Shown one piece after another: positions 15,830-32,420 of a DNA stretch of 64,000 bases. The notes under the pieces are model-generated. The model saw only the letters and a program-made list of their open reading frames with translations. It was not told the origin of the DNA and ran no database searches. The DNA lies in NCBI RefSeq assembly GCF_019844075.1, contig NZ_CP081964.1, positions 3,534,001 through 3,598,000 on the forward strand, in the 5' to 3' direction. How positions within the stretch are numbered: position 1 is the first letter of the stretch; each line of letters starts with the position of its first letter. The position numbers and the translations under genes were made by a program. This stretch comes from Curtobacterium sp. TC1 (lineage in GTDB: Bacteria > Actinomycetota > Actinomycetes > Actinomycetales > Microbacteriaceae).

Positions 15830-18800
15830 TCAGCTGCCGGCGGACGCGGTCTGCACGAGACGGACGGCCCCGCCTGATGCGGCGTAGCCGCGACCGACGG
15901 TGAGCGCGACGGGCGCGCGACGCGGCAGCGTGACGCCGAGGAGCTCGCCGTCGTAGTCGACGTCCGGCTGCAGCAGCACACCACACCGGGACTTCCGGAC
16001 CGAACGGGTCCAGTGGCTGTACATCGACCGGAGGTCAGCGGACCGGCCGGCCGCCACGACGCACAGTCCGGGGCGCTCGGTCGTGAGCAGCGTCGCGATG
16101 GCCTGGTCGCCGTCCTCGAACCGCTCCGCGTCGTCGATCAACAGCAGCACCGGACCGCGTTCGAGCCGGAGCCCGGCCAACAGGGCCGGGACCTCGTCAG
16201 GGCCGACGGCGATGCGGTCGAAGGAACCGGAGGCGAGCGGGGAACGGCGGTCACAGATCGCCCACACGGCCGGACGCACGCCCTCGGCTGTCCGCGCGAG
16301 CTCGGCGACGGCGAGGAGCACGCTCGACTTGCCGGACCGGGCCGGGCCGGCGATCAGCACGTGTTCGCCGTCGTAGACCTCGATCGACGCCGGCTGCAGG
16401 TCGTCCTCCGCGATGCCGATGGGGATCCGCCAGGGCTCACCCGCGAACACCGCTCCGGCGCCGAGCTCGTCCACGAGCACGGCATCGGGCAGCCGACCGA
16501 CGGCACTCGCCTTCCGGCTGCTGCCCGGACGGGTCTCCGCGATCCGGGTGACGGCCTCGGCGAGCGGGACGTCCGGGGTCGCGACGTGCGACTGCAACCG
16601 CATGGTCGAGTCGATGAAGCGGCCGGGTACCGGCGGCGGGACGTCCTTGGGGCGGACCCCGATGGACGCGTAGTCGTAGGGGTCCGCGAGGCGGAACATC
16701 CACTTCTGCGTGGTGACCTCGTCCATCGCCGACGGCACGGCCTTCGCGCGCGTCGTCGAGACCGCGAAGGAGATGCCGAGCGCGGGGCCCTCGGCGTACA
16801 CCCGGTAGAGCGCGTCGAGCAGCTGCTGCCCCTCGAAGTCCTGGTACTCGTCGCGCAGGGCGGCGAGGCCGTCGATGAGCACCACGGCACGGCGACCACC
16901 GGGTGCCGCACGACGACGCTCGAGCTCGACGCGGAGGTGCCGCAGGAACCGCGTCTGCAGCTCCCCCGCACCCGCACCGGAGCCAACGTAGGCCGTCGTG
17001 TGCGGCAACTGCGCGAGCGGAGCGAGGTCCCCCGGACCCATGTCGAGCACCAGCAGGTCGAGCTCGTCGGGGCTCGACGCTGCGGCGAGCTGCAGCGCGA
17101 TCGTGGCGAGCGCGGTGCTCGTCCCGCTGCCCGGGATGCCCATGAGCATGAGGTTGCCCTCGTCCAGATCCCATCCGGTGGTGACCTGACGCTGGTGGTC
17201 GGGGTCGTCGGCCAGGGCGACGGGGACGGTTCCGGACCGTAGGTCGGTGCCCGGGCCTGACTCGGTGAGGGCCGCCAGTTCGACGCGGTCGCCGAGCGCC
17301 TCGGGCCAGATCGGACGCGGCGGGGCGTACCCGGCTGCCGTGTTGGCCTTCCCGATCGCCTCGATCAGCTGGTCGAGGTCGGTGACGTCCGACGCGGTCG
17401 GCGCCGGTGCCGGCATCGGCGCGGGGACACCGAACACGTCGGTCGGCCGGACCGAGACCGGCTGCTCGGCACGCTCGTCACGGGCTCGGCCGGTGATGAG
17501 GGCGGTCTGCACCGGGGTGATGTCGTCCTGCCCGAGCTTGACGTAGGCGCGACCGGTCTGCTGTCGACCGATCCCGGCGGCGGCGGGGACACCGATGACG
17601 TTCGTCGAGTCCTCGCGGCTCTGCACCCGCAGGGCGACCCGCATGTTCGTGTTCGCGAGGATGTCCTCGCTCACCACGCCGGCCGGCCGCTGGGTGGCGA
17701 GGATCATGTGGACGCCGAGTGTGCGGCCGACGGCGGCGATGCTGACGAGCGACGTCAGGACGTCCGGGAAGTCCTTCGCGAGCATCGCGAACTCGTCGAC
17801 GACCAGCAGCAGTCGCGGCATCGGCTCGACCGGCTTCGTCGCCAGGTAGGCGTCGAGGTTGTCGATGTCGGCTCCGGCCGCGGCGAACACCCGCTGGCGG
17901 CGCTCGAGCTCGGCCTCGAGCGCACGGATCGCTCGGTCGGCGAGCTGCTCGTCGAGGTTGCTGATCGTGCCGATGGTGTGCGGCAGTCGCTCGCAGGCGG
18001 CGAACGCGGCCCCGCCCTTGAAGTCGACGAGCAGGAAGTTGAGGCGCGTCGGGTCGTTGCGTGCAGCGAGCCCGGCGACGAGCGACCGCAGGAACTCGCT
18101 CTTGCCCGAACCCGTCGTTCCGCCGACCAGACCGTGGGGGCCGTCGCGCACCAGGTCGATCTCGAGCACACCGCTCTCCGACGAGCCGATCGGGGTCGAG
18201 AAGCCCGTGCGCGTGTCCCACGCCGTGCGGATCCCGTCGCCCGACAACAGCTCCGGCAGGCGGACGAGCGCGGGCAAGGACGCCCCCGGCACGAGCAGTT
18301 CGGGATCGTCGAAGTGCGCCACGCTGCGGGCGCTGCGCTCCGCGGTCTCGACGCTGAGGCCGGCGAGCACGACGTCCTCGACACGGGTCCGGTCCTCCGG
18401 CCGGTAGACCGTGGCGGCGGCGTCGGCACCGACCGTGATGATCGACGTGCACGCGGCGGGGAGCTGCTGCTCGTTCGTCGCGATGACGATGCCGCTCACC
18501 CGGCGCGGTCGCTCCCCCGGGCGCAGGGACTGCCCGGGCACCGTGCGGCCCTGGCCGAGCAGGTTGCGGGCAGGGGCATCCCGTCCCTCGGTGAGTACCT
18601 CGGAATCGACCACGACGAGCAGGTTCGGCGTCGGCAGCTCGTCGATCGACTCCCGCAGGCCACGGAGCATCGCCGCGCTCTGGTCGCGTTGTGCCGACAT
18701 CCACCGGGCGCCGGTGCTGCTCCCCGCCACACGCGCGTGCGGCAGCCAGGAGGCCCACCCCCAGTCGTCCGCGCGCCCCGCGTCACAGAAGACGCCCACC

Positions 18801-20065
18801 GTCAGGTCCGCGGGACCACAGTGCACGGTGGCCTGCGTGAGCAGGCTGCGCGCCAGGGCGAGGGCGCCCTGGCGATCGCCGACGATCCCGACGACGCCGG
18901 CGTCGGACAGGTCGGCCACCACCGGGGCGGCCGTCAGGCGACTGTCGGCGATGGCGGCCTTCGCCTCGTCCTCGAGCTTCGCGGTCGCTGCACGCTGATC
19001 GACCTCGGGCCGCCAGGGAGCGTCCCCGGTGCCGGCGTGCAGGCTCAGGAAGTCCTCGTCGTCCGAGCGGCGCTGCCACAGCAGGGTGGTCGGCAGCTCG
19101 GCTCGCCGCACCACGGTCGCCGGATCGGGCACGAGCTCCTGGCGGCGGGCAGCCTCGACGGCCGCGGCTTCGGAGATCTCACCGCGGAAGGACTCCACGG
19201 CCTCGGCGAATCGGGTGTCCTCCTCCTTCAGGTTCTTCGCGCGGCGGTGCTTCTGCTCGAACCACATGCCGATCGCGGTGACCGGGGAGAGCAGGGCGAA
19301 CAGCGCGAACCGCGCGTCGCCGAGCAGGAGCACCATCGCACCGGCGAGCACCAGGGGTGCCGCGACGGTGATCCAGCTGAACTTCGAGGCCGGCGGCACG
19401 TCCTTGCGTCCGGGCGGCACGACCGTCTCGGCGTCGGAGGTCCGGCCGGCGCGTGGTGGGCGGTTGAACGGTGCCGTCGCCGCCGGGGTCAGGTTCGCCA
19501 TCGAGCCGGCCGCGGGCACGGGGACCTCGTCGAGCGCCGGCCGGACGAGCAGCACGGCGCCGCCCACGATGACGCTCGTCGTCCCGGTGAGCAGGACGCC
19601 CTCGGCGTCGATGCGCTCCCCGGCGATGACGGTGCCGTTCGTCGACCCCGCATCACGCACCCGCACACCGTCGTCCTCGCGCTCGACGGTGCAGTGCTCC
19701 CACGACGCGCTCTCGGTGGGGAGCACGACGTCGGCCTGCGGCGCCCGGCCGACCACGAGCTTCCGCCCGCGCGGGACCGGCACCACGAGGCCGGCTTCGA
19801 GCCCGCCGGCGAGCGTGACGGTCCAGCCGTCGGTGCCGAGCGGCCGTTCGTCGGGGGTTCGTCCGATGCGGGATCCCTCGAGCAGCACGAGGTCACGGAG
19901 CGGGGTGTCGACGCTGGTGCGGTGCCCGTCGACCGCCAGGGTGGTGCCGGGTTCGAGCGTGAGGCCGATGGCCGCGGACACGAGGTCCCCGAGCGAGGAT
20001 GCGCCGGACCACCCGTCGACCTCGACCGCATCACGTCGGTCGTCGAGCTCGATCAACAGCCGCAT
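15830..20065 (-). CDS. T7SS FtsK/SpoIIIE-type ATPase, EssC/EccC-like, with FHA domain
   Basis: A 1411-aa motor protein of a type VII-like secretion system. Residues 1-~75 look ubiquitin-like (beta-grasp), and ~90-165 are an FHA domain (VVGRAPQADVVLP, then H, then DAGSTNGTVI). Two membrane helices follow at ~230-265. Three FtsK-type ATPase modules come next: D1 Walker A GGTTGSGKSE (~650) with LLLVVDEFAML; D2 GIPGSGTST (~977), where the usual Walker Lys is Thr; and D3 GPARSGKSS (~1243) with LLLIDDAERF. GGAAFAACERLPH and LATQRPAGVVS are EccC/EssC hallmarks. Start ATG 20065 has GGAAGAGGAA upstream. The FHA N-terminus resembles firmicute EssC more than mycobacterial EccC. It is the last gene of the operon from 24255. 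Confidence 0.93.
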   Translation of the reverse strand: MRLLIELDDRRDAVEVDGWSGASSLGDLVSAAIGLTLEPGTTLAVDGHRTSVDTPLRDLVLLEGSRIGRTPDERPLGTDGWTVTLAGGLEAGLVVPVPRGRKLVVGRAPQADVVLPTESASWEHCTVEREDDGVRVRDAGSTNGTVIAGERIDAEGVLLTGTTSVIVGGAVLLVRPALDEVPVPAAGSMANLTPAATAPFNRPPRAGRTSDAETVVPPGRKDVPPASKFSWITVAAPLVLAGAMVLLLGDARFALFALLSPVTAIGMWFEQKHRRAKNLKEEDTRFAEAVESFRGEISEAAAVEAARRQELVPDPATVVRRAELPTTLLWQRRSDDEDFLSLHAGTGDAPWRPEVDQRAATAKLEDEAKAAIADSRLTAAPVVADLSDAGVVGIVGDRQGALALARSLLTQATVHCGPADLTVGVFCDAGRADDWGWASWLPHARVAGSSTGARWMSAQRDQSAAMLRGLRESIDELPTPNLLVVVDSEVLTEGRDAPARNLLGQGRTVPGQSLRPGERPRRVSGIVIATNEQQLPAACTSIITVGADAAATVYRPEDRTRVEDVVLAGLSVETAERSARSVAHFDDPELLVPGASLPALVRLPELLSGDGIRTAWDTRTGFSTPIGSSESGVLEIDLVRDGPHGLVGGTTGSGKSEFLRSLVAGLAARNDPTRLNFLLVDFKGGAAFAACERLPHTIGTISNLDEQLADRAIRALEAELERRQRVFAAAGADIDNLDAYLATKPVEPMPRLLLVVDEFAMLAKDFPDVLTSLVSIAAVGRTLGVHMILATQRPAGVVSEDILANTNMRVALRVQSREDSTNVIGVPAAAGIGRQQTGRAYVKLGQDDITPVQTALITGRARDERAEQPVSVRPTDVFGVPAPMPAPAPTASDVTDLDQLIEAIGKANTAAGYAPPRPIWPEALGDRVELAALTESGPGTDLRSGTVPVALADDPDHQRQVTTGWDLDEGNLMLMGIPGSGTSTALATIALQLAAASSPDELDLLVLDMGPGDLAPLAQLPHTTAYVGSGAGAGELQTRFLRHLRVELERRRAAPGGRRAVVLIDGLAALRDEYQDFEGQQLLDALYRVYAEGPALGISFAVSTTRAKAVPSAMDEVTTQKWMFRLADPYDYASIGVRPKDVPPPVPGRFIDSTMRLQSHVATPDVPLAEAVTRIAETRPGSSRKASAVGRLPDAVLVDELGAGAVFAGEPWRIPIGIAEDDLQPASIEVYDGEHVLIAGPARSGKSSVLLAVAELARTAEGVRPAVWAICDRRSPLASGSFDRIAVGPDEVPALLAGLRLERGPVLLLIDDAERFEDGDQAIATLLTTERPGLCVVAAGRSADLRSMYSHWTRSVRKSRCGVLLQPDVDYDGELLGVTLPRRAPVALTVGRGYAASGGAVRLVQTASAGS

Positions 20066-20101
20066 GCTCGCGTTCCTCTTCCGGGTCGGTGCGTGGGTGG
20101 G

Positions 20102-21502
20102 TCAGTCCGTGCTGGAGTCGTCGAACCAGACGAGCGACGCGGTTCGGGCAGCGTCGCTTCCGCTCCCGGTGCCGTCGCCGGACGCCGTGCTGGCCGGACG
20201 GAGACCGAGCTGCTGCGCCGACGCCGCGAGCACCGTCGCGGGCGTCCCGAGTGCCTGCTGCCGCGTGAAGTCGAGTGCCGGACCGGCGATGCCCGCATCG
20301 GCGTCGAGGTCGAGCGTGGCGAGGGCATCGGTGACGTCCGCCGGCTCGACGCTCCGCGCCGAACCGACGGCGCGGACCAGGGCGATGACGGCGTCGTGGC
20401 TGCGCGAGTCCGCTGCGCCCGCGACCGCCGAGAACGGCTGGTCACCGGTCAGGTTCTCGGCGTCCTGGTCACCGGCGAGCACCCGGACACCGCCGAGGAA
20501 GGCGGACATCGCGCGGCCCCCGGCGTCGGAGGCGAGCGCTCGGGCGTCGTCGGTGGCGACACCCACGGTCCGGAAGGCGCCGCTCAGGCTGCCGCCGGCT
20601 TCGACGAGCGCTGCGCCGAACGCCGGACTCGTCGCATCCGGGGTGAGGACGACCGGCACCGTGACGTTCTCGGCCTGGAGCGCGGCGACGAAGGCACCCT
20701 GGCGCTGCGCGGAGCCACTGACGACGACCGCGTCGGAGTCCGGCGTCACCGTCTTCGCGTCGGCATCGGCATCTTCCTCGTTGCTCGTCGCGCCGGTGCG
20801 TTCGGCGACGGTCGTGGCCAGCGCTGCAGCGTCTGCGGTGTCGTCCCCGTCCAGGACGTGTGCGACCCGCAGACCCGCCGGAGCACCGCCGCCCAGGTCG
20901 ACCAGCAGTGGCGCGTCGGCGTCGCCGAGTGCCGTGGTCATCGCCGTGCTGATCGAGCCAGCCGCCGGCGCCGTCGACCAGGAGTCCTTCTCCGCCGGAG
21001 CGTAGGGCAGGACGACCGGGATGCCCTTCGCCGCAGCAGCAGTGAGGGCGCCGGACACGTGGCTGCCCGACGAGGCGACGACGATGCCCGCGACCCCGCT
21101 CTTCGCGAGGGACTCGACCGCGGCCGTGCCGCCGGCAGCGGTCCCGCCGTCGTTCTTCGTGACGAGCGCGACGTCGGTGCCACCGAGTGCGAGCCGACGC
21201 TCCGCCACCAGCGCACCCTGCGCCGCTTCGTTCCACTCGGATCCCTCGCCGTCGCCGAGGGTGACGATGACGCCGATCGTCGTCTTCGCGGGGACGTGCG
21301 CCACCGTGACCTCCACCGGCACGGTCGCCGAGACCGCTTCGGCCGGGGTGCTGCTGCCGAACGCCCGGAACGTCAGGACGGCGGCGACCACCGCCGCCAC
21401 CAGGAGCACCGCGATGCCGACGAAGAGCAGCGGACGGCGGCTGCGCGGACGCGTCCCGTCGGCGCTCTCCGTTGCCGTGGCTTCGGTCGTCTGTTCGCTC
21501 AT
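20102..21502 (-). CDS. Membrane-anchored type I periplasmic-binding-like protein of the T7SS island
   Basis: A 466-aa protein with a short cytoplasmic tail, one transmembrane helix (PLLFVGIAVLLVAAVVAAVL, ~25-45) and an extracellular domain (~70-430) with the fold signature of Leu/branched-chain amino-acid binding proteins: TTIGVIVTLGDG, GALVAERRLA, GIVVASSGSHVSGALTAAAA and GGSLSGAFRTVG. It overlaps the upstream lipoprotein by 4 bp (ATGA) and lies 36 bp before the EssC-like ATPase, so the three are one operon. No ABC transporter genes are nearby, so a role as a surface component of the secretion system is more likely than nutrient uptake; this is inference. Confidence 0.75.
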   Translation of the reverse strand: MSEQTTEATATESADGTRPRSRRPLLFVGIAVLLVAAVVAAVLTFRAFGSSTPAEAVSATVPVEVTVAHVPAKTTIGVIVTLGDGEGSEWNEAAQGALVAERRLALGGTDVALVTKNDGGTAAGGTAAVESLAKSGVAGIVVASSGSHVSGALTAAAAKGIPVVLPYAPAEKDSWSTAPAAGSISTAMTTALGDADAPLLVDLGGGAPAGLRVAHVLDGDDTADAAALATTVAERTGATSNEEDADADAKTVTPDSDAVVVSGSAQRQGAFVAALQAENVTVPVVLTPDATSPAFGAALVEAGGSLSGAFRTVGVATDDARALASDAGGRAMSAFLGGVRVLAGDQDAENLTGDQPFSAVAGAADSRSHDAVIALVRAVGSARSVEPADVTDALATLDLDADAGIAGPALDFTRQQALGTPATVLAASAQQLGLRPASTASGDGTGSGSDAARTASLVWFDDSSTD

Positions 21503-24255
21503 CGGTCCGCCCCGATCCGGAAGGTGTACAGCGTGGTCGACGTCGCGCTGGCGGGGACCTTCAGCTGGAACGCCGGCAGCGTCGTCGCCGCATCGAGCGA
21601 CGCACGGAACTGCTCCTGTTGGAGCAGGATGCCGGCGACGTCCTCGGCGCGGACGTTCGCGTATCCCGCGGCGTTCTGCGACGCCAGGGCGAGCTGGTAG
21701 TCGGCGGAGTCGGACTTGGCCGCGCTCGTGGCCATGGCGCCGAGGATGCCGGAGCCGTTCACCTTGCGGTCGCCGAGGTCGAGCATCACCCGGTTGAGGT
21801 CGCCGGTCAGCAGCGTCGAAGCACCCTGCACGTCGCGCGTCGAGGCGCTCGTGCTGGCCGTGATGCGCTCGAGGCTGGACGCCGTCTGCCGGTCGACCGC
21901 CGAGGAGAGCTCCGAGCCTTCTTGCTCGAGCGTGCTCTTCTGCTCGTCGATCGTGCCCTTCGAGTCCTTCGTGACCTCGTCAGCGGTGGACTGCAGGCCC
22001 GAGATCGACTTGTCGAAGGCGTCGCGGACGGCCTGGTTGCTCTCGGACGCCGTGGTCGACACCTTCCGCACCTGTGCGTCGATGGCCTTCTTGAAGGTCT
22101 CCGACGACTGGTCGGAAGCGTCCTCGAAGGTCTTCTGGACCTCCGCAGCGAGGTCGATCTGCGTCTGGCGGACGGTCGCGAGCTGTGTGGCGATGACCAT
22201 CTGCGACCGGTCGGCATCCGAGACCGCTGCGCGAAGGCGTTCGATCGTGGAACCCACGTCGTCGCTCCCACCACGGACAGCATCACGGACAGCGCGGATG
22301 CTGTCGTCGAGCGCGGTCAGATCGGTCCGCAGGCCGGCGACCGCGCTGCCGATGGACCCCTCGGTCGTCGCGTCGGCACTGGTCGAGTCGACGACTTCCT
22401 GCCAGCGCGCCGTCTGGTCGTCCAGTCGTTCGTCCATCGGGTCGGTGAAGCCGAGGCCGGGCTGCAGCACGGTTCCCTCGGGCGCACCGGCGCAGGGCTC
22501 GGCCGTCAGGTAGCCGCGGAGGCGATCAGCATCGGCCTGGTCGAGCTGTCCGAGCGTCGCGAGGGCACAGAGCTGGTCCGCGACCGCCGAGTTCTGGCGC
22601 TGCATCGACAGCGGGAACCCTGCACCGTCGACCAGGTCACGTGCCGCCTCGGCACGGTCGTGCGTGGTCTGCACGGCCGTCGCCAGTGCGTCGATTCGCG
22701 TGCCGATCTGGTCCGCGCTCGCCGACAGCGCGCGCAGTGCGTCACCGGTGCCGCCGTCCCCACCGTCCTCGTACTCGTCCAGTGCGTCGGAGATGCGGGT
22801 GAGCTGCGTGTCGAGGCCGGCAGCGCTCGCGATCGCGGCGTCCACCGTCTCCGGCTGCAGCCGCGCGGCGAGTGCCTGCCCGGTGCTCACCAGGCCGATC
22901 AGCGAACCGTTGATCGCGGTGGACGACTCGTAGAGCGTGCAGGTCAGCGAGTCTCGCGCGTCCGTCGCGGCGCAGGTCGTCGCGTCCGGAGCCTTCGGGC
23001 CGACGGCAGCGGCGAGCTGCGCACTCACCTGCTGCTTGCACGCCTCGCTCGCATCGGCGTAGCCCTTGAGCTGCGACGAGACACTGAGCAGGTTGCCGTA
23101 GACGCTGCCGCCCGCGGTCGAGGTCTTGGGCGTCGCCGCGCATCCGTTCCCGTCGAGGACCGGAGCGGGCGCCGTCGCCGAGGTGTCGCCGAGCAGGCTG
23201 TCGAGACTCGTGGTGGTCTGCTGGAGCTGCTGCAGCACGGTGGACTGTGTCGCCTTGACGGTCGTGCCGAGATCGCCGTTCAGGGAACCGAGCTCGCCGG
23301 ACAGGGACCGCATGGTGCCCGCCAGGGACGAGCCGCTCTCCTTGAGCCGCTCGGCCGTGCTGACGCCGAGGGTCTTCGACGTGGTCTCGAGGTTCGACCG
23401 GACCTCGGTGATCGTGCCGCCCGCTCGTGCGAGCACCTCGTTCACCTGCGAGATGAGGTCGATGGTGCGGCGCTGGAGCGCGAGTTCGGAGTCACTGTCG
23501 GACCCGAACGCGGCGTTCACCACCCCGGTCGAGGACAGGTCCGTGGACAGCCCGGGCTGCGCGGCGACGTCGAACGTGGGCGCCGTGAAGTCCTTGACGT
23601 CGGCGACGAGGTGCAGCGTGCTGCTCGCGCCGGACGTCGGCGGGGCAAGCAAGCGGCCCCACTGGACGACCGCGTCGCCGTCCTCGTTGGTGCTGACGAC
23701 GCCGTCGGTGGACGAACTGGAGTCGGCGGCATCCGTGACGATGCGGTCGGCCGCGGTGCCGGTGAGGACGGTCGAGGCCGCGACGCTGAAGGGCGCGCCC
23801 ACCAGCGCCGGCGTCGAGCGAGAGGTCCCGGCGACGTCGTAGGTCAGGTTCTTCGACGTGACCGTGAGGTTCTCGATCGTCAGGTCGATCGCGATCCTGC
23901 CCGAGTACCCGTCGAGGTCAGCGAGGTCGGTACCGGTCTTCTTCGACGTCGAGTACTGCGTCGTGATGCGGAGCGGGAGGTCACCAGCCGCCTTCGCGGG
24001 GTCGTGGTCGGTCGTCGCCGACGAGGAGTCCTTGCCCGCGACCGAGATCGCGGTGTCGGAGATCGACGTGATCGAGCCGTCCGCGGCCAGACGCGTGTCG
24101 ACGGTCTGCAGGATCCGTGACGGGTCAGCCACCGGCTTGTCGTCGAACGTGCACCCGGCGAGCACCAGCGCGGCGACGCCGGTGACGGCGACCGCCCCCA
24201 CGAGTCGGCGAGTGGTGCTTCGTGCTCCGGTGTTCCCGGCACGCTGGTTGATCAC
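21499..24255 (-). CDS. Large coiled-coil lipoprotein of the T7SS island
   Basis: A 918-aa predicted lipoprotein with lipobox VLAGC (Cys35), so it is anchored outside the membrane. After a ~200-aa beta-rich part (SNLTYD-, TLHLVADV-like strands) comes a long helical region rich in Gln, Ser, Thr, Ala and Leu with repeated heptad-like stretches and many Thr/Ser. Several Cys pairs (GNGCAATPK, ASEACKQQ, DATTCAAT, LTCTLYE) suggest extracellular disulfides. GTG 24255 with GGGGGGAAG upstream is chosen because the signal peptide follows; longer frames run into the divergent promoter. Its helical filament character recalls the extracellular stalk of EsaA/YueB, but it has a lipid anchor instead of membrane helices. 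I know no named family. Confidence 0.78.
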   Translation of the reverse strand: MINQRAGNTGARSTTRRLVGAVAVTGVAALVLAGCTFDDKPVADPSRILQTVDTRLAADGSITSISDTAISVAGKDSSSATTDHDPAKAAGDLPLRITTQYSTSKKTGTDLADLDGYSGRIAIDLTIENLTVTSKNLTYDVAGTSRSTPALVGAPFSVAASTVLTGTAADRIVTDAADSSSSTDGVVSTNEDGDAVVQWGRLLAPPTSGASSTLHLVADVKDFTAPTFDVAAQPGLSTDLSSTGVVNAAFGSDSDSELALQRRTIDLISQVNEVLARAGGTITEVRSNLETTSKTLGVSTAERLKESGSSLAGTMRSLSGELGSLNGDLGTTVKATQSTVLQQLQQTTTSLDSLLGDTSATAPAPVLDGNGCAATPKTSTAGGSVYGNLLSVSSQLKGYADASEACKQQVSAQLAAAVGPKAPDATTCAATDARDSLTCTLYESSTAINGSLIGLVSTGQALAARLQPETVDAAIASAAGLDTQLTRISDALDEYEDGGDGGTGDALRALSASADQIGTRIDALATAVQTTHDRAEAARDLVDGAGFPLSMQRQNSAVADQLCALATLGQLDQADADRLRGYLTAEPCAGAPEGTVLQPGLGFTDPMDERLDDQTARWQEVVDSTSADATTEGSIGSAVAGLRTDLTALDDSIRAVRDAVRGGSDDVGSTIERLRAAVSDADRSQMVIATQLATVRQTQIDLAAEVQKTFEDASDQSSETFKKAIDAQVRKVSTTASESNQAVRDAFDKSISGLQSTADEVTKDSKGTIDEQKSTLEQEGSELSSAVDRQTASSLERITASTSASTRDVQGASTLLTGDLNRVMLDLGDRKVNGSGILGAMATSAAKSDSADYQLALASQNAAGYANVRAEDVAGILLQQEQFRASLDAATTLPAFQLKVPASATSTTLYTFRIGADR

Positions 24256-24424
24256 GGTCTTCCCCCCAAGAGAATCGTCGAGCACATCGATGCTAGTTGC
24301 TCGATGACGTCGGGTCCGCGTCGATCGGCCTCCCTGGCCGCCCCCGTTCGGGCCACACGCCCCGACTGGCATACAACGTATCGCATCCGGAGCGTCGCGC
24401 GATCGCTGTCCACAGCCGCGCTGG

Positions 24425-24430
24425 TACTCT
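24425..24430 (+). promoter_or_regulatory. -10 element of a leaderless promoter
   Basis: TACTCT sits exactly 6 nt before an ATG at 24437. This matches the leaderless layout found at many genes here and argues that translation begins at 24437 rather than only at the GTG at 24508. The rest of 24256-24436 is the divergent spacer of the T7SS operon. Confidence 0.55.
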
Positions 24431-24436
24431 GCACGC

Positions 24437-24511
24437 ATGATCCAGGGGGGCCAGGGCTTCGGGCCCATCGAACGACGACGTCCGTACGCACGACCGGGGG
24501 CAGATCGGTGA
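24437..24511 (+). CDS. Leaderless 24-aa reading frame coupled to the next gene
   Basis: ATG 24437 opens a 24-codon frame (begins MIQGGQGFGP, rich in Arg/Pro at its end) with TACTCT 6 nt upstream. Its TGA (24509-24511) overlaps the GTG start of the membrane protein (24508-24510) as GTGA. Such an arrangement can serve as a translational-coupling leader. It may encode no functional peptide. Confidence 0.45.
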   Translation: MIQGGQGFGPIERRRPYARPGADR

Positions 24512-25101
24512 CACTCAACCTCTCGCCGGTCCTCATCGCGCTGATCGCGATGATCGCGATCCCGGCCGCCGTCAGCGCGCTCGTCCACCGGAGCGATCGC
24601 AAGCGACCACCGTCCACCGTCGTGGGCGACGAGGCGTACGGCGTGCTCTTCACCGTCCGCGCACGCCGGTGGAGCTACCTCTTGCTCCGGATCATCGGGA
24701 TCGTGTTCATCGTCATGGGAGGGTTCTTCTTCCTCGCCACGCTCACGCTGCTCGACGACCCTGACGCGATCGGGATGCTCATCACTGCTGTCGCCATGGT
24801 GCTGTTCGGGATCCTGTTCGTCTACCTCGGCGTCGGGCAGAAGCGCCGTCGCGTCGAGGCGTACGACGACCAGCTCATCGTCACACCGATGTTCCGCGCC
24901 GCCGGCGCCGTCGGCCCAGGCGCGATCACCCGCATCAGTCCGACCACCAACCGGTTCGGCGGGCTGGACATCAGGGCGAAGGGCCGGCGAGGCGTGATCA
25001 GCGTCCTGGCGATCGATGCCGCCTACCCCGAGCTGTGTGCCTGGCTCGAGCAGCGGGCTCCGGGACCGTGGGGTGAGTTCGTGCGGGTCTTCGGACGCTG
25101 A
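24508..25101 (+). CDS. Two-span membrane protein with cytoplasmic PH-like domain
   Basis: A 197-aa protein. It has an N-terminal hydrophobic anchor (LSPVLIALIAMIAIPAAV), a soluble turn, then two close helices (LLLRIIGIVFIVMGGFFFLATL and AIGMLITAVAMVLFGILFVYLGV), followed by ~90 residues with the strand pattern of a bPH-type domain (VEAYDDQLIVTPMF). It is divergent from the T7SS operon and may be part of the island. Function unrecognised. GTG 24508 is set by overlap with the small leader frame. Confidence 0.7.
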   Translation: MTLNLSPVLIALIAMIAIPAAVSALVHRSDRKRPPSTVVGDEAYGVLFTVRARRWSYLLLRIIGIVFIVMGGFFFLATLTLLDDPDAIGMLITAVAMVLFGILFVYLGVGQKRRRVEAYDDQLIVTPMFRAAGAVGPGAITRISPTTNRFGGLDIRAKGRRGVISVLAIDAAYPELCAWLEQRAPGPWGEFVRVFGR

Positions 25102-25251
25102 CAGCGCGCCACCGACCGACAGTTGGCGCAAATCGGAGCTATTCACCATCGTGTGTCGCACACACAGCGCTGTGTTGCGGTCCCGCCCAGAACCGTCGCC
25201 CCGTTCGTGCGTCGGCAAAAGCGACGCTCGCCCCGTTCTTCCGCCGACGAT

Positions 25252-25749
25252 CTACGCGCTATCCGGGCACTCTGTGTAGTGGTAGATCGACGGAACCACT
25301 TTCACCAGCTTGAGTATGTTCCGCAACTTGAACGAGCCGGCGCCAAGTTCGAAACGGTATTCTGCACCCGCATTCACTGCGGACGCTACATCGTTCATGT
25401 TCGAGCGATCCACACCAACCCAAAGCAGATTCCCACAGTCGGTGTCGAAGTTCACTTGGGGCTGCGAACCGCCTCTGGACGAATGAACTTCCGCAGCAAT
25501 GGACCGGACGCGACAGACAACGTTCACACGGTGCTCATCGTCATATTGCCCTAATACCCACGGGCCGACACCGAATGCCAGGACAGGGACCACCACGACA
25601 CCCGTGAGAACGACGATCGCGCTAGCGCGGTCACGAAGAACACGACCACGGGTACTTCTTATGTGCCGCGCGGTCCGTCGGCCATACTCCCTGCTGCGTT
25701 CTACACGTCGACGGCGTCGCACCATTACTCCTGGCTCATCCACTCGCAT
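25252..25749 (-). CDS. Membrane protein, candidate immunity protein (paralogue of 26189-26620)
   Basis: About 165 aa: Arg-rich N-terminus, one transmembrane helix (AIVVLTGVVVVPVLAFGVGP) and an extracytoplasmic domain. It shares with the neighbour at 26189-26620 the pattern YDxxHR...C.V..AE...DCG.L..GV...RF..G.GS...R..L, including two aligned Cys. The start is uncertain: ATG 25749 or 25728 (an AGGAG lies very close to the latter). The gene is visibly less GC-rich than its surroundings (a sampled 60-bp line is 50% GC), a sign of separate origin. Its place downstream of an Rhs gene suggests immunity; I do not recognise the family. Confidence 0.62.
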   Translation of the reverse strand: MRVDEPGVMVRRRRRVERSREYGRRTARHIRSTRGRVLRDRASAIVVLTGVVVVPVLAFGVGPWVLGQYDDEHRVNVVCRVRSIAAEVHSSRGGSQPQVNFDTDCGNLLWVGVDRSNMNDVASAVNAGAEYRFELGAGSFKLRNILKLVKVVPSIYHYTECPDSA

Positions 25750-25794
25750 CCGGAAAGGATCGAGAACTGTAAGATATTCGCCGCGCCGCAAGCT

Positions 25795-25938
25795 TCACCG
25801 GACCATGCGGACCGCTTTTCCTCCCTCGAGGCAAGTTCGACGCAACCTGTTCGTACAGAGGAGAACCAGCCCAGCGATCGCAACGACGGAGGACACCCCG
25901 ATGCTGAATTGCCGACCCCACCGACCTGCTGCTGCCAT
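25795..25938 (-). CDS. Doubtful 47-aa hydrophobic reading frame
   Basis: ATG 25938 opens a short frame with one hydrophobic stretch (SIGVSSVVAIAGLVLLCTN) and a basic end. No ribosome-binding site is convincing. It could be a small membrane protein, or the remnant of a third copy of the flanking single-span paralogues whose extracellular domain has been lost. Confidence 0.2.
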   Translation of the reverse strand: MAAAGRWGRQFSIGVSSVVAIAGLVLLCTNRLRRTCLEGGKAVRMVR

Positions 25939-25949
25939 TCGCGTATCCG

Positions 25950-26188
25950 ATCAAAGATGATTCAAGTCTTGCCGTCAGCCGAGGCCGATCTAGCTTCCGA
26001 TCCAGCTCGCTGACTCGACAGTCGCTCCGCCCGATCCGGCCAAACGCCACCGCGCAGCTGGTTTGTCGAGCGATAAGTCAGAAGCTCACGGCATCCTGCC
26101 GACTCGTCGCAGCAGCCGACGCAGGATCTCCCCTCGCGCAACGATAGGCGATGTAGATGCTGCAAGAACTAGGAGAAGGAAAGCGAAC
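25950..26188. other. Gene-poor low-GC spacer with decayed coding fragments
   Basis: Between the two paralogous membrane-protein genes no intact gene is visible. A minus-strand frame ending at the stop at 26086 reads SDEFAFLLLVLAASTSPIVA and then an Arg-rich end, like a real membrane-protein C-terminus, but it has no start codon. The sequence is AT-richer than the rest (one 60-bp line is 48% GC). It probably holds debris of exchanged toxin or immunity cassettes. Confidence 0.4.
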
Positions 26189-26620
26189 TCATCGCTCGTA
26201 ATCGAATGCCGTTGGGTATCGATTTATCACGTGGAGCGCACTCCGGAACCACCATGACCCTTTGCCTACAGAAAACCGCGTCTCCCCACCAGTCGCTAAG
26301 TCCCGTGCGACCTGTTCTTGTACTGTCTTCTTGACACCCTGCAAGATGAGTACACCACAATCTTGCGTCTCGACTTTCACGTATGAGAACGGGGCACCCA
26401 AGCCGGTCCGGCTCACCGTGGACCCTGCATACACTTCTGCATCAGAAACATCGCAGGCCATGGTCCTCCGGTGCGTTTCGTCGTACGCGCTCATCCAATT
26501 GGGCCACACAAGCAGAATCACGAGCGATGCCACGACGCCGAAAGCCCAAACAGCCAGGATGACCCAGGCCCTTCGATTCCCCTTCGCCTGGGTGGCCGGG
26601 GTGGCAGCTGGCTCGCTCAA
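26189..26620 (-). CDS. Membrane protein downstream of rhs, candidate immunity protein
   Basis: A 143-aa protein starting at TTG 26620 with GAGAGG 8 nt upstream, only 15 bp after the rhs stop, so it is certainly in the rhs transcript. It has a polar N-terminus, one transmembrane helix (WVILAVWAFGVVASLVILLV) and an outside domain with MACDV and DCGVL. It is paralogous to 25252-25749. A membrane protein with its domain outside would fit immunity against an envelope-acting or pore-forming toxin; this is inferred from position and topology only. Confidence 0.68.
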   Translation of the reverse strand: MSEPAATPATQAKGNRRAWVILAVWAFGVVASLVILLVWPNWMSAYDETHRRTMACDVSDAEVYAGSTVSRTGLGAPFSYVKVETQDCGVLILQGVKKTVQEQVARDLATGGETRFSVGKGSWWFRSALHVINRYPTAFDYER

Positions 26621-26635
26621 TCAGTACACCTCTCG

Positions 26636-29600
26636 TCACGGAGCCACGTGCTGCGGCACGTGCGCCGCCGTCGGGCCCTCGGCACCTGACAGGATACCGT
26701 TCAGCGCGGTAGTTCCGAAGTTTCCCTGAAGGTCGCCACCTGGTCGAATCGCTTCGTTGGTGACCGCGGAGAATCCCCCCATGAGGTGATTGGTCGTCTG
26801 CCCGATCACTTCGTTAGCACCGGTTGCGAAGGGCGTCATTGCCGCATGAGCATTCGAGCTCGGCGTCCCGAAGTTGCCGGGTACCTTGACGACCGAGCTC
26901 AGCCCCCGGGAGAGGGCACTGCCTCCGTACCCGGTACCAAAACCGGTCCCGAACGCTTGCAAGCCTCCTGCAAAGGACTTGTCTTGGATGTTCGCGTTCG
27001 TCGCGTAGTCCATGGTGTTCGAGGCAGCCTGCTGCGTGCCGGCGCCGAGTGCAGCCTGGCCGCCCTTACCGATGGCAGCGGTGGCAACGCGCTCGGCCGC
27101 GCCGCTGATCCCAGCCGCTCTCGATGCGGCCATGCGACTGGTAACCGATGACGCAATGCGGGTAGCACCTGGCGCGAGCTTTCCAGCGACCCCAGCAACA
27201 CCACCGCCGATGGCGCCGGATACACCACCGATGACCATCTGGCGCCCCACGTCTCCCCAGTTCACTTTTCCGCTGTCGGGACCTTGCTGAATGATCGAGA
27301 TCCCGCCGGCCATGAGCGCACCCGACCCGGCCGCGGCCAACGCCATCACTGCGATGTTCACTCCAGGAACGAACATGAGGGCCACAGCCCCGACGATCAT
27401 CGCGGTCGCCAGGATCGCTTCTTTGTGGTCGGCGATCCACTTGCCGGCGCCAGCGATCGCACCCTGGTTCGCATCCCGGTACGCCTGCAGGTCCTTGTCC
27501 GTCGCCGGCCGCAACCCGAGCGGGTCGACCGCTTGCAACGGATCATTGCCGGCGTATGAGTACGGGTTCCCCGACCACGCCGCACCCAGGATCGGCGCGA
27601 GCGGATCGACCGACAGGAAGCCTCGCGCCGCAGGGTCGTACACACGTGCCCCGAGCCACTCCAACCCGGCGACGGACACCCCGCCCGAGCCGGTCAGCGC
27701 CACCCCCGCGGGCAGGCCGACGTCCGTGACGGCAGCGAGCGCCGCCCACGGATCCGCAGCATCGGTGGCGCGCGCGCTGCGCCACGCGGGCTGCGTAACA
27801 GCATCGCCGATCGCGGTGACACCACCGGGCAAGTCGAGCAGCAACGTGTCGGCGATGCTGATCAGCGACGGCACGACCGCGGCGGAGTCCCACCACGCGG
27901 CGACCCCACCCACCTCGGCGAGTTCACCGAGGGCATCGACCCAGACGTCGAGCCGGGCGGTCTCGACGTACGAGGCGTCGCGGTCGACGACGGCAGCGAG
28001 GTACCCGAGGTCCGACCACGCGTACTCGGTGGTGGATCCGTCAGCGGCGGTCCGTCGGATGCGTCGACCGAGACCGTCGTGGACGTACTCGATACGGCCG
28101 GCTTCGGTGATCGTCGCGACCAGCTGACCGGCAGCGTCGTACTCGTGGCGTGTCTCGGCCCCGCCGACGGTCTCGGCGACGAGCCGCCCACGGTCGTCGT
28201 AGGTCCACGTCGAGTCCCCGGCGCGGACGAGCTGGCCGGCGGCGTCGTACTCGTACGACACCGTTCCGGACGGTCCGTCGATCGCGGTGATCCGCGCGTC
28301 GGCATCGCGCTCGATGCGCGTGGTGGTGGCACTGTCGAGCGTCGTCGAGGTGTGCGCGACGAGTGCGCCACCCTCGTACGACCACGACTGCACCAGGTCG
28401 CCGGTGGCCGCCTGGACGATCCGACCCGAGGCGTCGTACGAGAACGTGCCGGCAGGGGCGCCGTCCCGTTCCACCCCGACGACGCGGCCGACGACATCGC
28501 GACGGTAGGTGGTCCGGGTGCCGTTCGGGTCGACCCGAGCCGTGCGGTTGCCGTCGGCGTCGTACTCCCACGCGACGGACCGGTCGCCTCGGGCACGGCG
28601 GACGAGCAGGCCACGGCGGTCGTGCTGGAGCTCGTGCTCGATCGTCCGACCGGCACCACGGGTGTGGTCCGACACGACGACAGTTCGGTTGACGGCGTCG
28701 CGGGTGATCTCCGACTGCACCGCACCGTCGACGATCACGGCTCGCTGTCGGCCAGCCGCGTCGTGTGTCCACTCCGTCGTGCGGCCGTCGGGATCCGTCT
28801 GGCTGATCTGGCGCCCGGCGGGGTCGTAGGCCGCGGTGGTGGTGCGGCCGAGCGGGTCGGTGACGGCGATCAGACGGTCGGCGGCGTCGTACTCGCGTCG
28901 AGTGGTCCCGCCGGCAGGGTCGGTGATCGTCACCAGCCTTCCCCGGTCGTCGTACTCGAACGAGGTGACCCCGTCGAGACCGTTGACGACCTGGATCAGC
29001 TGCCCGGCTGCGTCGTAGCGGAACCGACGACGGCCGAAGCGTGCGTCCTGACTGGAGACGAGCCTCCCGGCCTGGTCGTACCGGAACCGCGCGGTGCCGG
29101 AACCCGGAGTCGTCTGCGTGACCACGCGTCCGACGGCGTCGTACGTGACCTGCTCGACCTCGCCGGTGGGCAGGGTGCGGGCTACGACGCGGGAGTCCGC
29201 GTCGTAGGTGAGCGTCGTCCTCGCCCCCGCGGCGTCGGTTGCCGCGGCGGGACGACCGCAGGCGTCGTACTCGTAGGTCGAGCGCGCTCCCGAGGGGGCG
29301 ACCAACGCCACGACACGGCCGGCGAGGTCGCGCTCGAGTCGGGTCAGGCCGCCTTCGCCGTCGACGAGTTCGACGGGGCGACCGGCAGCGTCGTAGGTGA
29401 TGAGTTCGGAACCGGTCTCGTCAGACGTGGACTCGACGGGTCGGCCGCACTCATCGAACCGGACGGTCGCGGTGTCGAAGGCGTCGCGCAGGGTCGCGAC
29501 GCCCGTCGCGACGTCGTCCGAGAACTCCTGACGGACGCCCGTCGGGTCGACGGTCGCCGTCAGCTCGCCGACGACGTCGTACTCGCGACGCCAGGTCGCG

Positions 29601-32023
29601 CCGGCGGGGTCGGTGACGGCCTGGAGGCGCGACAAGGCGTCGTGCGCGAACGTCCAGACCGCGCCGCCCGGCAATGCGAGCTCCGCCAGGTTCCCCTGGT
29701 CGTCGAACGTCCGCGAGACACGCCGACCCAGCGGGTCGGTGGTCGTCGCGAGCTCGCCGTTCGGGGCGTAGTCGAACGTGGTGCGTGCTCCGAGTGGATC
29801 CACGACCGCTGCGATGCGTGAGCCGGCGCCGTACTCGAAGCGCCAGACGGCGCCGTCGGCGTCCCGCCGTTCGACGAGGAGCCCCGCTGCGTCGTAGCGG
29901 TACTCGCTCCGGGCGCCGGACGGGCTGACAGCGGCGACCGGGCGACCGGCGGCGTCGCGCTCGATCCGAGCGGTGGCGCCGACGGCGTTCGTGGTCGCGA
30001 CGAGCTCGCCGAACGTGTCGTGGTCGAAGGTCAGGACCACGCCGGTCGGGTCGACGACGTGGGTGAGCACGCCGTCTCGCCAGGTCAGCTCAGTCCGGCC
30101 GCCGACCGGGTCGGTGATCACCGACGGGTCGCGGTCGTCGCCCACGTACTCGTAGGAGACGACGGCGCCGGCCTCGGTGACGACGGTCGTGACGCGGTCC
30201 TGCTCGTCGTACCCGTAGGTCAGGTCACCGCCGGACGGCGTGACGGTGCGGGTCTTCCGGCCGCGGTCGTCGTACGCGTGCACGGTGACGGACCCGTCGC
30301 GCTCGGTCGCCGACACCAGGTTGCCGTGCCGGTCGTAGCTCATCGACTGGCGGCGGTCGTCGGAGTCGATGACCCCGACGAGACGCCCCTTGGCGTCGGC
30401 GATGTAGGAGTTCGACCGCGAGCCGTCGTGGTCCGACACCACCGTGACACGACCGGGCAGGTAGGCGAAGCGCACGGTGCGGCCGTGCGGGCTGACCTGC
30501 TCGACGACGCGGCGCTGGTCGTCGTAGGTGTTGTCGACCTCGACGACACCGGCCGCGCTCGTGACCGTCATGATCAGGTCGTCGTCGTTCCAGCCGTAGG
30601 TCCGGGTGCCGACGGCATCGGTCACCGTGACGAGGCGGCCCCGGTCGTCGTACCCGTACTCGACCCGGCGGCCGTCGGACGCGCGGAGCACCGCGACCCG
30701 GCCGTCGACGTGGTCGACGTCGATCGAGCGGCCTCGCTCGTGCACCAGGCGGACGACGACGTCGTCGCTGTTCCGTTCGATGCGGACCGCTGTGCCGGCT
30801 CCGCCGCGCTGTCCGAGCCACTGCCCCGACGGCGAGAAGTCGATGCGCTCGCCCTGGTTGTCGCGGACGACGAGCCGGTCGCCCTCGACCGCGAGCCAGC
30901 GGTTCTCGCCGACTCCGCGCGCCCAGCCCTCGCCGTCGCGCAGGAACCGGACCTGGCGGCCGTCAGCACCGACGAACGACGCGCCCTCGTCGTCGATGAG
31001 CAGCCGGGTCTCGAGGATCGACGCCCACCCCGGACCGAAGAGCCCGACGTGCTGGTCGAGGGAGTTGTACATGCGGGTGATCTGCAGCGCCGCGGATGCA
31101 CCGGTGAACCCGAGGTCGAGCTCCGGTTCGAGGAAGTTGCCCGTCGTGGTGTTGACCGGGTCCATCGAGTACCCGGTGGTCGGCTGGGCGCCGTAGGCCG
31201 ATGGCGGATCGAACTGCAGGTCGGTGCGGGACTGCGAGACGCCGGCGGCCGTCAGGGCCGCGGCGAGCGCGGCATCCGAGACGGTGGAGACGGCGCCTTC
31301 GCCGCCGGCTGCCGCGAACGCGTCGGCGATGGTGTTCGCCCACGTGACGTCCTGGCCGTTGGCGGTGCTCCACTGCTCGAAGGCGTTCACGAGGCTCGTC
31401 GCGTCGATGTGCCCCCAGGAGCACTTCGACGCGAAGTCGGCGAGCTTGCCGCGCAGGCCAGCCGGCTTGCCGTCGAGCGACTGGTTCAGTGTCGACGACC
31501 CGGTGGCGAACGAGCGGAGGTCGGCGGGCTTGGCGGACGACGTCCCACCGCCACCCCCGCCACCGGACCCGGGGTTCGGCGTCTGGCGCGGAGTGCTCGG
31601 TCCGGTCGCCTGGTCGAAGGTCGGTGCGTCCTCGTGGTGGACGGTGGGCGGCACGGGAGCCCCGGCGACCTTGTCGTGCACCCACTCGAAGAAGTTCCGG
31701 TCGCCGTACTCCGCTTCCCAGTCGCGGGCTTCCTTGCGACGAGCGTTCTCCCGCTCGGCGGCGGCCTGCATCTTGTCGACCCACCCCGCGACGGTGCGGA
31801 GGTTCGCGGCGATCGTCGAACCGTCGGACGCTGCCGTCGACGCGTTCTGCGCGAAGAGCTCGGAGAAGTGCCCGCGGAACTCCTGCGACGCGGTGGTGAC
31901 GTAGGACTGCCGTGAGCCGGCCTGTCCCTCGATCGACTCGGCCGCGCCGTTCAGTGCCGAGCTGAGTGCGTCGGCCGTAGCGTTGTCGAACTCGACCGGA
32001 TCGTTGCCGTGCAGGTCAGCCAT
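26636..32023 (-). CDS. Rhs/YD-repeat polymorphic toxin-like protein, predicted T7SS substrate
   Basis: A 1795-aa protein. Residues 1-~120 are helical and Ala/Glu-rich like WXG100-related export domains, without a Sec signal. A Gly/Pro linker follows, then a DUF6531-type segment ([20 protein letters not shown], ~270-350), then more than 1000 residues of YD repeats (YDAAGRL, YDDRGR...) forming the encapsulating Rhs shell. The shell closes with [13 protein letters not shown]...[10 protein letters not shown] and DPLGL. The last ~290 residues are the variable tip: a hydrophobic pair of helices ([20 protein letters not shown]), Gly/Ala/Ser-rich stretches and a C-terminus without any nuclease, deaminase or ADP-ribosyltransferase motif I know. 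Start ATG 32023 is 115 bp after the WXG100 gene. Confidence 0.9.
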
Positions 32024-32038
32024 GGTTCTTCCCCCGAA

Positions 32039-32065
32039 GTCGTACTGGTCGTACTGGTCGTGCTG
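32039..32065. repeat. Three 9-bp tandem repeats before rhs
   Basis: GTCGTACTG occurs twice and GTCGTGCTG once, head to tail, directly upstream of the rhs start. It may be a phase-variable or simply unstable spacer; it lies outside any gene. Confidence 0.5.
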
Positions 32066-32090
32066 GTCACGCGGCCCCACCGACCGCGAA

Positions 32091-32124
32091 CGCCCGGACC
32101 GCCGCGAGCGCGACGGTCCGGGCG
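32091..32124 (-). terminator. Attenuator-like hairpin between the WXG100 gene and rhs
   Basis: An 11-bp perfect inverted repeat (32091-32101 with 32114-32124) sits in the 115-bp spacer. It probably ends part of the transcripts, so the small WXG100 protein is made in excess over the giant Rhs protein. Confidence 0.55.
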
Positions 32125-32138
32125 GAACGAGTGGCTGC

Positions 32139-32420
32139 TTACGCGCCGCCACCCGCGGTGAAGATGTCCTGCGAGATCTTGTCGAGCTGCGTGCGGAGCT
32201 GCTCGAGCTCGGTCTTCGCCTTGTCGAGGGCGGCCTTGGTTTCCGGCCAGGTCGACCCACGGAACGTCGCCGCGAGCGGGCCGTCCCAGACGTTCGAGTC
32301 GGACAGGATCCGGCCCTGGGCGTCGAGCTGCGAGATCTGGTCGGTGAAACCACCGTTGATGATCGACTGGACCTGACGGATGGCGGTCTTGGCCTGCTCG
32401 GTCGAAAGGACACGCGACAT
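32139..32420 (-). CDS. WXG100 family (EsxA-like) protein
   Basis: A 93-aa helix-turn-helix hairpin protein typical of T7SS substrates and chaperones. The turn between the helices carries W-D-G (SNVWDGPLA, ~residues 44-46), the WXG signature, with the second helix [21 protein letters not shown]. It has no signal peptide and the short length is right for the family. AGAGG precedes ATG 32420. Upstream of rhs, it likely dimerises with, or helps export, the WXG-like N-terminus of the Rhs protein through the EssC-like ATPase. Confidence 0.9.

Follow-up and report, generated by a model that had tools for sequence, protein, structure and literature searches.

A candidate type VII secretion subtype of actinobacteria encoded with a lipoprotein, a binding-protein-like partner and a receptor-type kinase

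Among published type VII secretion systems (T7SS), T7SSd is the nearest to the gene cluster described here. Its description (PMC11217815) presents an actinobacterial machine with a WXG100 protein, a membrane Ser/Thr kinase, an Rhs neighbour, the protein TsdH, with one transmembrane (TM) helix and a short tail, and an EssC motor carrying an N-terminal FHA domain with an intact phosphothreonine site, with no separate gene for a ubiquitin-like protein; control by phosphorylation was raised there by Garrett et al. TsdH apart, these features recur, with a weakly matching WXG100-like protein for the WXG100 protein, in a cluster that we analysed in Curtobacterium sp. TC1, a bacterium of soil and plants, within a stretch of 64,000 nucleotides (C3:3534001-3598000, referred to as the window) of an assembly of 4,160,677 bases in three contigs. 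The cluster also shares an FHA-bearing EssC with T7SSb (Ess/Yuk), whose EsaA likewise has an extended extracellular domain, and an FtsK-type ATPase with T7SSa (ESX), along with a WXG100 or WXG100-like partner; however, that report describes the T7SSb FHA domain as devoid of the phosphothreonine site and the T7SSa EccC as devoid of FHA (PMC11217815), whereas the window EssC carries the domain with the site intact. The cluster is likely an undescribed T7SS subtype, and we lean towards reading it as one in which a relay of binding protein, kinase and FHA domain gates EssC, with a lipoprotein as a lipid-anchored stalk. No description of this gene set was found in the open-access literature, searched by title and start of abstract; the search took in neither preprints nor papers behind subscription, nor the supplements to Garrett et al.

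In the order of transcription from the minus strand, the cluster encodes a WXG100-like protein, an Rhs protein, two one-TM proteins, a coiled-coil lipoprotein (LP), a periplasmic-binding-protein-like protein (PBP) and EssC. With corrections given below, this is the cluster proposed in an earlier note on this DNA, which overlooked the pair of one-TM proteins and a kinase gene, convergent with that of EssC and outside the coordinates of the note. EssC itself (15830-20065, minus strand, 1411 aa) is a membrane-anchored ATPase of the EssC/EccC type, with an FHA domain at residues ~88-175, TM helices at ~230-268 (by eye) and FtsK/SpoIIIE ATPase domains thereafter. Its Pfam matches (FtsK_SpoIIIE, 160.5 bits; FHA, 45.9 bits) bear out the claim of an FHA-bearing motor, and its PDB matches were 4nh0, YukB 9qks and EccC5. 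The best NCBIfam match was T7_EssCb_Firm (TIGR03928; 470.7 bits, E=9e-141, cut-off 778.4), and EccCa and EccCb gave 371.2 bits (cut-off 509.15) and 250.7 bits (cut-off 346.55), respectively. Judged by these alignments, the protein belongs to the EssC/EccC family, yet it scores under all three curated cut-offs. Six residues which we take to be the phosphothreonine site (G106, R107, S121, H124, N143 and G144) are kept in 67-68 of 68 aligned rows, a feature in common with T7SSd. The Walker A lysine K655 is conserved in all 68, and in one P-loop a threonine (T982) replaces lysine in 66. The FHA domain is preceded by a conserved segment (residues 1-70, window 19855-20065) in which a possible beta-grasp (ubiquitin-like) shape is hinted at; the ubiquitin-like part that T7SSd is said to lack may reside here, as a fusion with the motor. 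By eye, the start of EssC in two T7SSd comparator loci (L179 and L180) resembles that of the window EssC.

The assembly as a whole was searched (E<=0.001) for four families of known partners (EccB, EssB/YukC, YukD and the EsaA N-terminus); EccE, MycP and EssA were outside this search. EccB gave no match, the control being 17 of 296 genomes of the phylum over the cut-off, and neither did EssB/YukC or YukD, each with a positive control in B. subtilis and with the EccD membrane domain outside the search. A single EsaA match was sub-threshold (62.3 bits, cut-off 122) and unlinked to EssC, at C3:627596. It lies (C3:627596-627925) in a 991-codon frame which we presume might encode a YhgE/Pip-type membrane protein. 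The claim that known core partners are missing thus held, and across the genome, for EccB, EssB and YukD, and for EsaA with the qualification of this one match. By the same results the cluster differs from T7SSb and, as regards EccB, from T7SSa. In EssC trees (a quick one of 48 rows and a careful one of 22, midpoint-rooted, no Bacillota EssC included), the window EssC formed, with those of L161, L162 and L120, a branch with 100/100 support, apart from T7SSa (100/100) and from a branch of T7SSd and the EssC of the strain's own plasmid (100/100); how it relates to T7SSb, T7SSc and T7SSe-j was judged from profile scores only.

Conservation was examined at 68 distinct loci, collected by scanning contigs of GTDB genomes with an alignment of 18 LP sequences (A1) and taking the best 80 of 86 relatives; partners were counted at each locus by tblastn with six window proteins. 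LP and PBP were present at all 68 loci, EssC at 67 (the sole exception is a 4,422-base contig), the kinase at 64, Rhs at 53 and the WXG100-like protein at 48. LP and PBP were on the same strand in every case, and the median gap between PBP and EssC was 88 bp (tblastn ends, 67 loci). In the window, the 4-bp overlap that had been claimed for LP, PBP and ATPase genes is found between LP and PBP, while PBP and EssC are 36 bp apart. The loci span at least six families, Microbacteriaceae, Micrococcaceae, Promicromonosporaceae, Propionibacteriaceae, Nocardioidaceae and Actinomycetaceae, with the genera Curtobacterium, Frigoribacterium, Frondihabitans, Klugiella, Leucobacter, Xylanimonas, Arthrobacter, Paenarthrobacter, Paeniglutamicibacter, Glutamicibacter, Enteractinococcus, Microlunatus, Marmoricola, Nocardioides and Schaalia, and unclassified records. 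Among 150 genomes of the family, the three with an EssC of >60% identity were the same three with a strong LP; apart from two genomes considered below, the others among the matches listed had an EssC of at most 473 bits. One further close EssC (G679, 46%), accompanied by LP, PBP, kinase and WXG100-like protein, was found among 347 genomes of the order. LP and PBP are not found mostly without EssC, an outcome that would have spoken against the earlier note, and their constancy beside it (67/68), the searched T7SSa and T7SSb partners not exceeding cut-offs and the distinct EssC branch leave the notion of a separate subtype standing. An EssC match at E<=1e-90 was present in 139 of the 347 genomes, and most of the scores resembled those of the other EssC branch; these matches are a large set of actinobacterial EssC loci, few neighbourhoods of which were read. 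One locus of the same order (L184, G461) is an EssC cluster with a kinase, a 714-aa FHA-match protein and, by eye, a PP2C-like gene.

LP (21499-24255, minus strand, 918 aa) has a signal and an LAGC lipobox at residues 32-35 (by eye), and no C-terminal TM helix. In its AlphaFold2 model (pLDDT 71; alignment range 43..916, VIA-align), a beta-sandwich base (47-234 with the C-terminal strand 905-914) holds a helical, coiled-coil insertion of ~630 residues; across the family the ends are conserved and the middle is variable. The predicted shape fits a surface stalk. PBP (20102-21502, minus strand, 466 aa) consists of a short cytoplasmic tail, one TM helix and an extracellular type-I periplasmic-binding (HAAT-like) domain. 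Its assignment to this solute-binding fold is based on Pfam matches of 26 family members (Peripla_BP_4 in 14, Peripla_BP_6 in 11, best 1.2e-15) and on the match of the family profile to 4obb in the PDB (E=7e-10), the window protein alone giving 20.0 bits, under the Pfam cut-off of 22.2. Such a membrane-anchored fold suits the predicted sensor. Alternatively, both proteins could be structural substitutes for EccB/EccD or EsaA/EssB, building a conduit round EssC without any sensing. They are as constant as EssC at LP loci and are encoded directly upstream on its strand, the LP model is stalk-like, and PBP folds can be recruited as scaffolds. However, each has a single anchor, with no multi-TM part to line a pore; the PBP anchor varies, being a helix at most loci and a lipobox cysteine at 5 of 67 (by eye), so that nothing is kept on the membrane or cytoplasmic side; and regulation is suggested by the kinase and the FHA site, both intact. 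We regard this possibility as unlikely. Of the suggestion in the earlier note that LP and PBP replace channel or stalk components, the stalk agrees with the LP model, while no evidence implicates PBP as a channel component.

The receptor-type Ser/Thr protein kinase (13738-15741, plus strand, 667 aa; Pfam Pkinase, 177.1 bits) comprises a kinase domain at residues 14-266, one TM helix at ~368 and an ectodomain of ~280 aa without an assigned fold, and the catalytic K, HRD and DFG are intact in 61-62 of 62 rows. As in T7SSd, it stands beside EssC, adjoining the module at 64 of the 68 loci: at 39 loci it lies downstream of EssC on the opposite strand and at 20 on the same one, at two it separates PBP from EssC, and at three it is found upstream of LP. 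It occurs near the module in five different arrangements, including within the operon in two Nocardioides, and is thus retained as a neighbour through rearrangement. Conservation of the kinase, together with the FHA site of EssC, leads to the picture of a regulated system, and the clustering of genes for this membrane kinase, the FHA-bearing motor and the extracellular binding protein suggests a relay.

The gene set, its conservation and linkage, the intact catalytic and FHA residues, the LP shape (as predicted) and the separability of the module discussed below are directly supported, and a series of predictions may be built on them. In the predicted sensing step, PBP and the kinase ectodomain would detect an extracellular cue. 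The active kinase would then phosphorylate a threonine, the predicted target of the EssC FHA domain, and this binding would act as a switch, turning assembly or export on. Secretion and toxin action are predicted likewise: EssC would export the WXG100-like protein of 93 aa as well as the Rhs toxin, serving competition among bacteria, while the small immunity-like membrane proteins would protect the producer. LP, in its predicted stalk role in the envelope, would place its lipid-anchored beta-sandwich at the membrane, with the long helical hairpin projecting. Analogies suggest that such a relay has precedents. The PknG substrate GarA is an FHA protein. In the GlnH-GlnX-PknG-GarA relay, GlnH, a putative lipoprotein of solute-binding type, is reported to bind Asp/Glu/Asn and is proposed to control the Ser/Thr kinase PknG; that system is metabolic, and GlnX relays the signal across the membrane, whereas here the kinase has its own TM helix and ectodomain. 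In the type VI secretion system, PpkA-dependent phosphorylation of TssL is reportedly read by Fha; there, too, a toxin exporter is switched by a kinase through a phosphothreonine that an FHA domain recognises, although the machine is unrelated and Fha is a separate protein, not part of the motor. The third precedent is the phosphorylation control suggested for T7SSd.

The putative substrates are encoded upstream. The 93-aa protein (32139-32420, minus strand) has a central W-D-G and had been called a clear WXG100 protein. Its matches are weak (Pfam, 17.2 bits, cut-off 27.3; TIGR03930, 19.0 bits, cut-off 44.85), and it does not appear in the genome-wide list of five WXG100 matches (E<=0.001); the assignment gains weight because the protein is conserved across loci, being 70-100% identical at those where it was found in the fetched stretch, save L089 (57%). 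It is probably an EsxA-like core substrate or partner. Among 22 genomes searched whole (L022 being the positive control), it was present in 17. Several of these have it immediately outside the flank that had been fetched; in L034, L036 and L063 it lies on a different contig or far away from LP, and L029 and L077 yielded no more than pieces of it. The giant Rhs gene (26636-32023, minus strand) follows next, as claimed; its product, 1795 aa from ATG, has DUF6531, RHS repeats, an Rhs core and a variable C-terminal tip with two hydrophobic segments. Against six close relatives the core is 91-94% identical vs 13-41% for the tip, and this conserved core, the exchangeable tip and the adjacent immunity-like genes mark it as a putative polymorphic toxin. 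Directly behind it lies the gene for immunity-like one-TM protein 1 (26189-26620, minus strand, 143 aa, TTG start), with a GC content of 58% vs 70.6% across the window, and then that for its paralogue, immunity-like one-TM protein 2 (25252-25791, minus strand, <=179 aa, start uncertain); the two are ~31% identical and have relatives at many loci. In one locus (L035:6500-9300), five members of this family and one other gene stand between Rhs and LP, an array resembling the runs of immunity-gene paralogues that have been reported for T7SSb (PMC9484751). An opposite-strand membrane protein gene (window 24508-25101) lies between the immunity-like genes and LP, with relatives at 14 of the 68 loci, including Curtobacterium records.

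A separate problem is whether these genes travel together. In two Nocardioides loci (L086 and L088), LP, PBP and kinase are present with an EssC from the other branch, and the WXG100-like protein was not found in either genome searched whole. Forcing the nine LP-type EssCs together was rejected (p-AU 5e-56 in the careful tree, the grouping having been picked after the first tree), and LP and PBP of these two loci fall within the LP and PBP diversity in a quick tree, weakly resolved and with long branches. At L161, a WXG relative (108 bits) stands beside a window-branch EssC without LP. Judging by these few genomes, LP, PBP and kinase seem to form a set that can part from EssC, and the WXG100-like protein perhaps follows the EssC lineage. 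Two of 72,556 plasmid records encode LP, both from Rothia terrae. One stretch of plasmid p2 (NZ_CP062961.1, 53,798 bases) carries Rhs, the 93-aa gene, kinase, LP, PBP and the FtsK/SpoIIIE ATPase, accompanied by a second Rhs gene, with tblastn identities to the window of 70% for WXG, 57% for EssC, 45% for the kinase, 38% for Rhs, 28-37% for LP and 35% for PBP. On the evidence of the plasmid itself, and not of the host chromosome, these genes may make up nearly the complete dedicated set. The WXG relative on p2 (L186:9200-9481) is annotated 'pyrophosphorylase', which is probably a misnomer hiding the WXG family.

Several observations weigh against the relay reading. All locus counts are conditional on LP, through which the loci were collected. 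EssC of the window branch can occur without LP and PBP: in the family sample, G051 and G121 (EssC 41-42% identical) have no LP match genome-wide and no LP or PBP match within 20 kb of EssC, and among 296 genomes of the phylum L161 (G384) and L162 (G425), with EssC of 45-46% identity, have no LP or PBP profile match nearby. In G384, G425 and G321, LP was checked in the EssC neighbourhood only, and L163 (G321, EssC 42%) says little, its contig ending 1.6 kb upstream of EssC. The WXG100-like protein scores under both WXG100 cut-offs and was not found in 5 of the 22 genomes searched whole; besides the two Nocardioides these are L048, L051 and L084, whose EssC is of the main lineage or whose sequences come from cut drafts. 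The kinase is absent at four loci (L050, a short contig, L062, L084 and L085); no phosphatase was noticed among repeated neighbours, where no profile search was made; and the LP model has a pTM of 0.45, with residues 281-345, 772-784 and 828-868 mostly at pLDDT <50. As to the surroundings of the EssC genes in G121 (L120) and G051 (L121), they stand alone: the flanking genes are unrelated, and LP, PBP, kinase and WXG all gave no match in the vicinity.

Such dissociations would suit an explanation in which LP, PBP and kinase are all parts of a sensory or regulatory module, and EssC uses unlinked channel parts or no further ones. The set is found with two different EssC lineages, and window-branch EssCs occur without it, in L161 beside a WXG relative, which indicates separability from both motor and substrate; moreover, the strain's two other EssC loci have no LP-profile match, and their one PBP-profile match is a LacI-like regulator. 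On the other hand, a stalk-like LP of 918 aa is large for a regulator, and the dissociations are based on few genomes, so we consider this explanation rather improbable. The two other loci, at C3:3640182-3651562 (L011, L012) and on the plasmid contig at C1:141272-149968 (L013), encode EssCs 34% identical to the window EssC, two small WXG100-like proteins and a protein of 424 or 479 aa whose beginning is WXG-like.

The T7SSd comparators L179 and L180, identified by gene content and both from one family code, carry a WXG100-like gene, a membrane kinase, EssC and a 1798/1797-aa protein with a C-terminal TM helix, in which Ig-like domains were detected in L179. These TsdI-like proteins gave no tblastn match (E<=0.01) in the window, the 68 loci or L011-L014, and LP and PBP profiles gave none (E<=10) on them, so that the large Ig-like envelope protein of T7SSd has no counterpart found here; the kinase-ectodomain profile reached 222 bits on the LP-type L181 and did not match the two T7SSd kinases. 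Although the common logic of a WXG100 or WXG100-like protein, FHA-bearing EssC with a phosphothreonine site, membrane kinase, large envelope protein and nearby Rhs could suggest a diverged T7SSd with the kinase as TsdD, LP as TsdI and PBP as TsdH, this is very improbable given these results, the lack of a C-terminal TM helix in LP, and the grouping of the comparators' EssC in another branch (100/100; two comparators of one family code).

We therefore return to the relay that gates EssC. A more elaborate form of it, to which we give somewhat less than even credence, is a ligand-gated T7SS subtype in which PBP and the receptor kinase control EssC via FHA, LP is the stalk, the set is exchangeable across two distant EssC lineages and a plasmid, and a ubiquitin-like part is maybe fused to the EssC N terminus. 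The authors of the genome paper of strain TC1 identified no type VII genes (PMC8830320), which indicates that such systems can be overlooked. Which signal fires type VII systems is, in our judgement, an open question. Here a sensor-like protein, a kinase, a phosphothreonine reader and a motor share one small conserved cassette, which is also plasmid-borne, and such compactness makes the question testable. LP has at least 262 relatives at E<=0.001, and among the 120 listed most are unnamed or 'hypothetical'; the system, if true, would assign this family a role, and it would mean that a module of T7SS envelope parts can pass from one EssC lineage to another.

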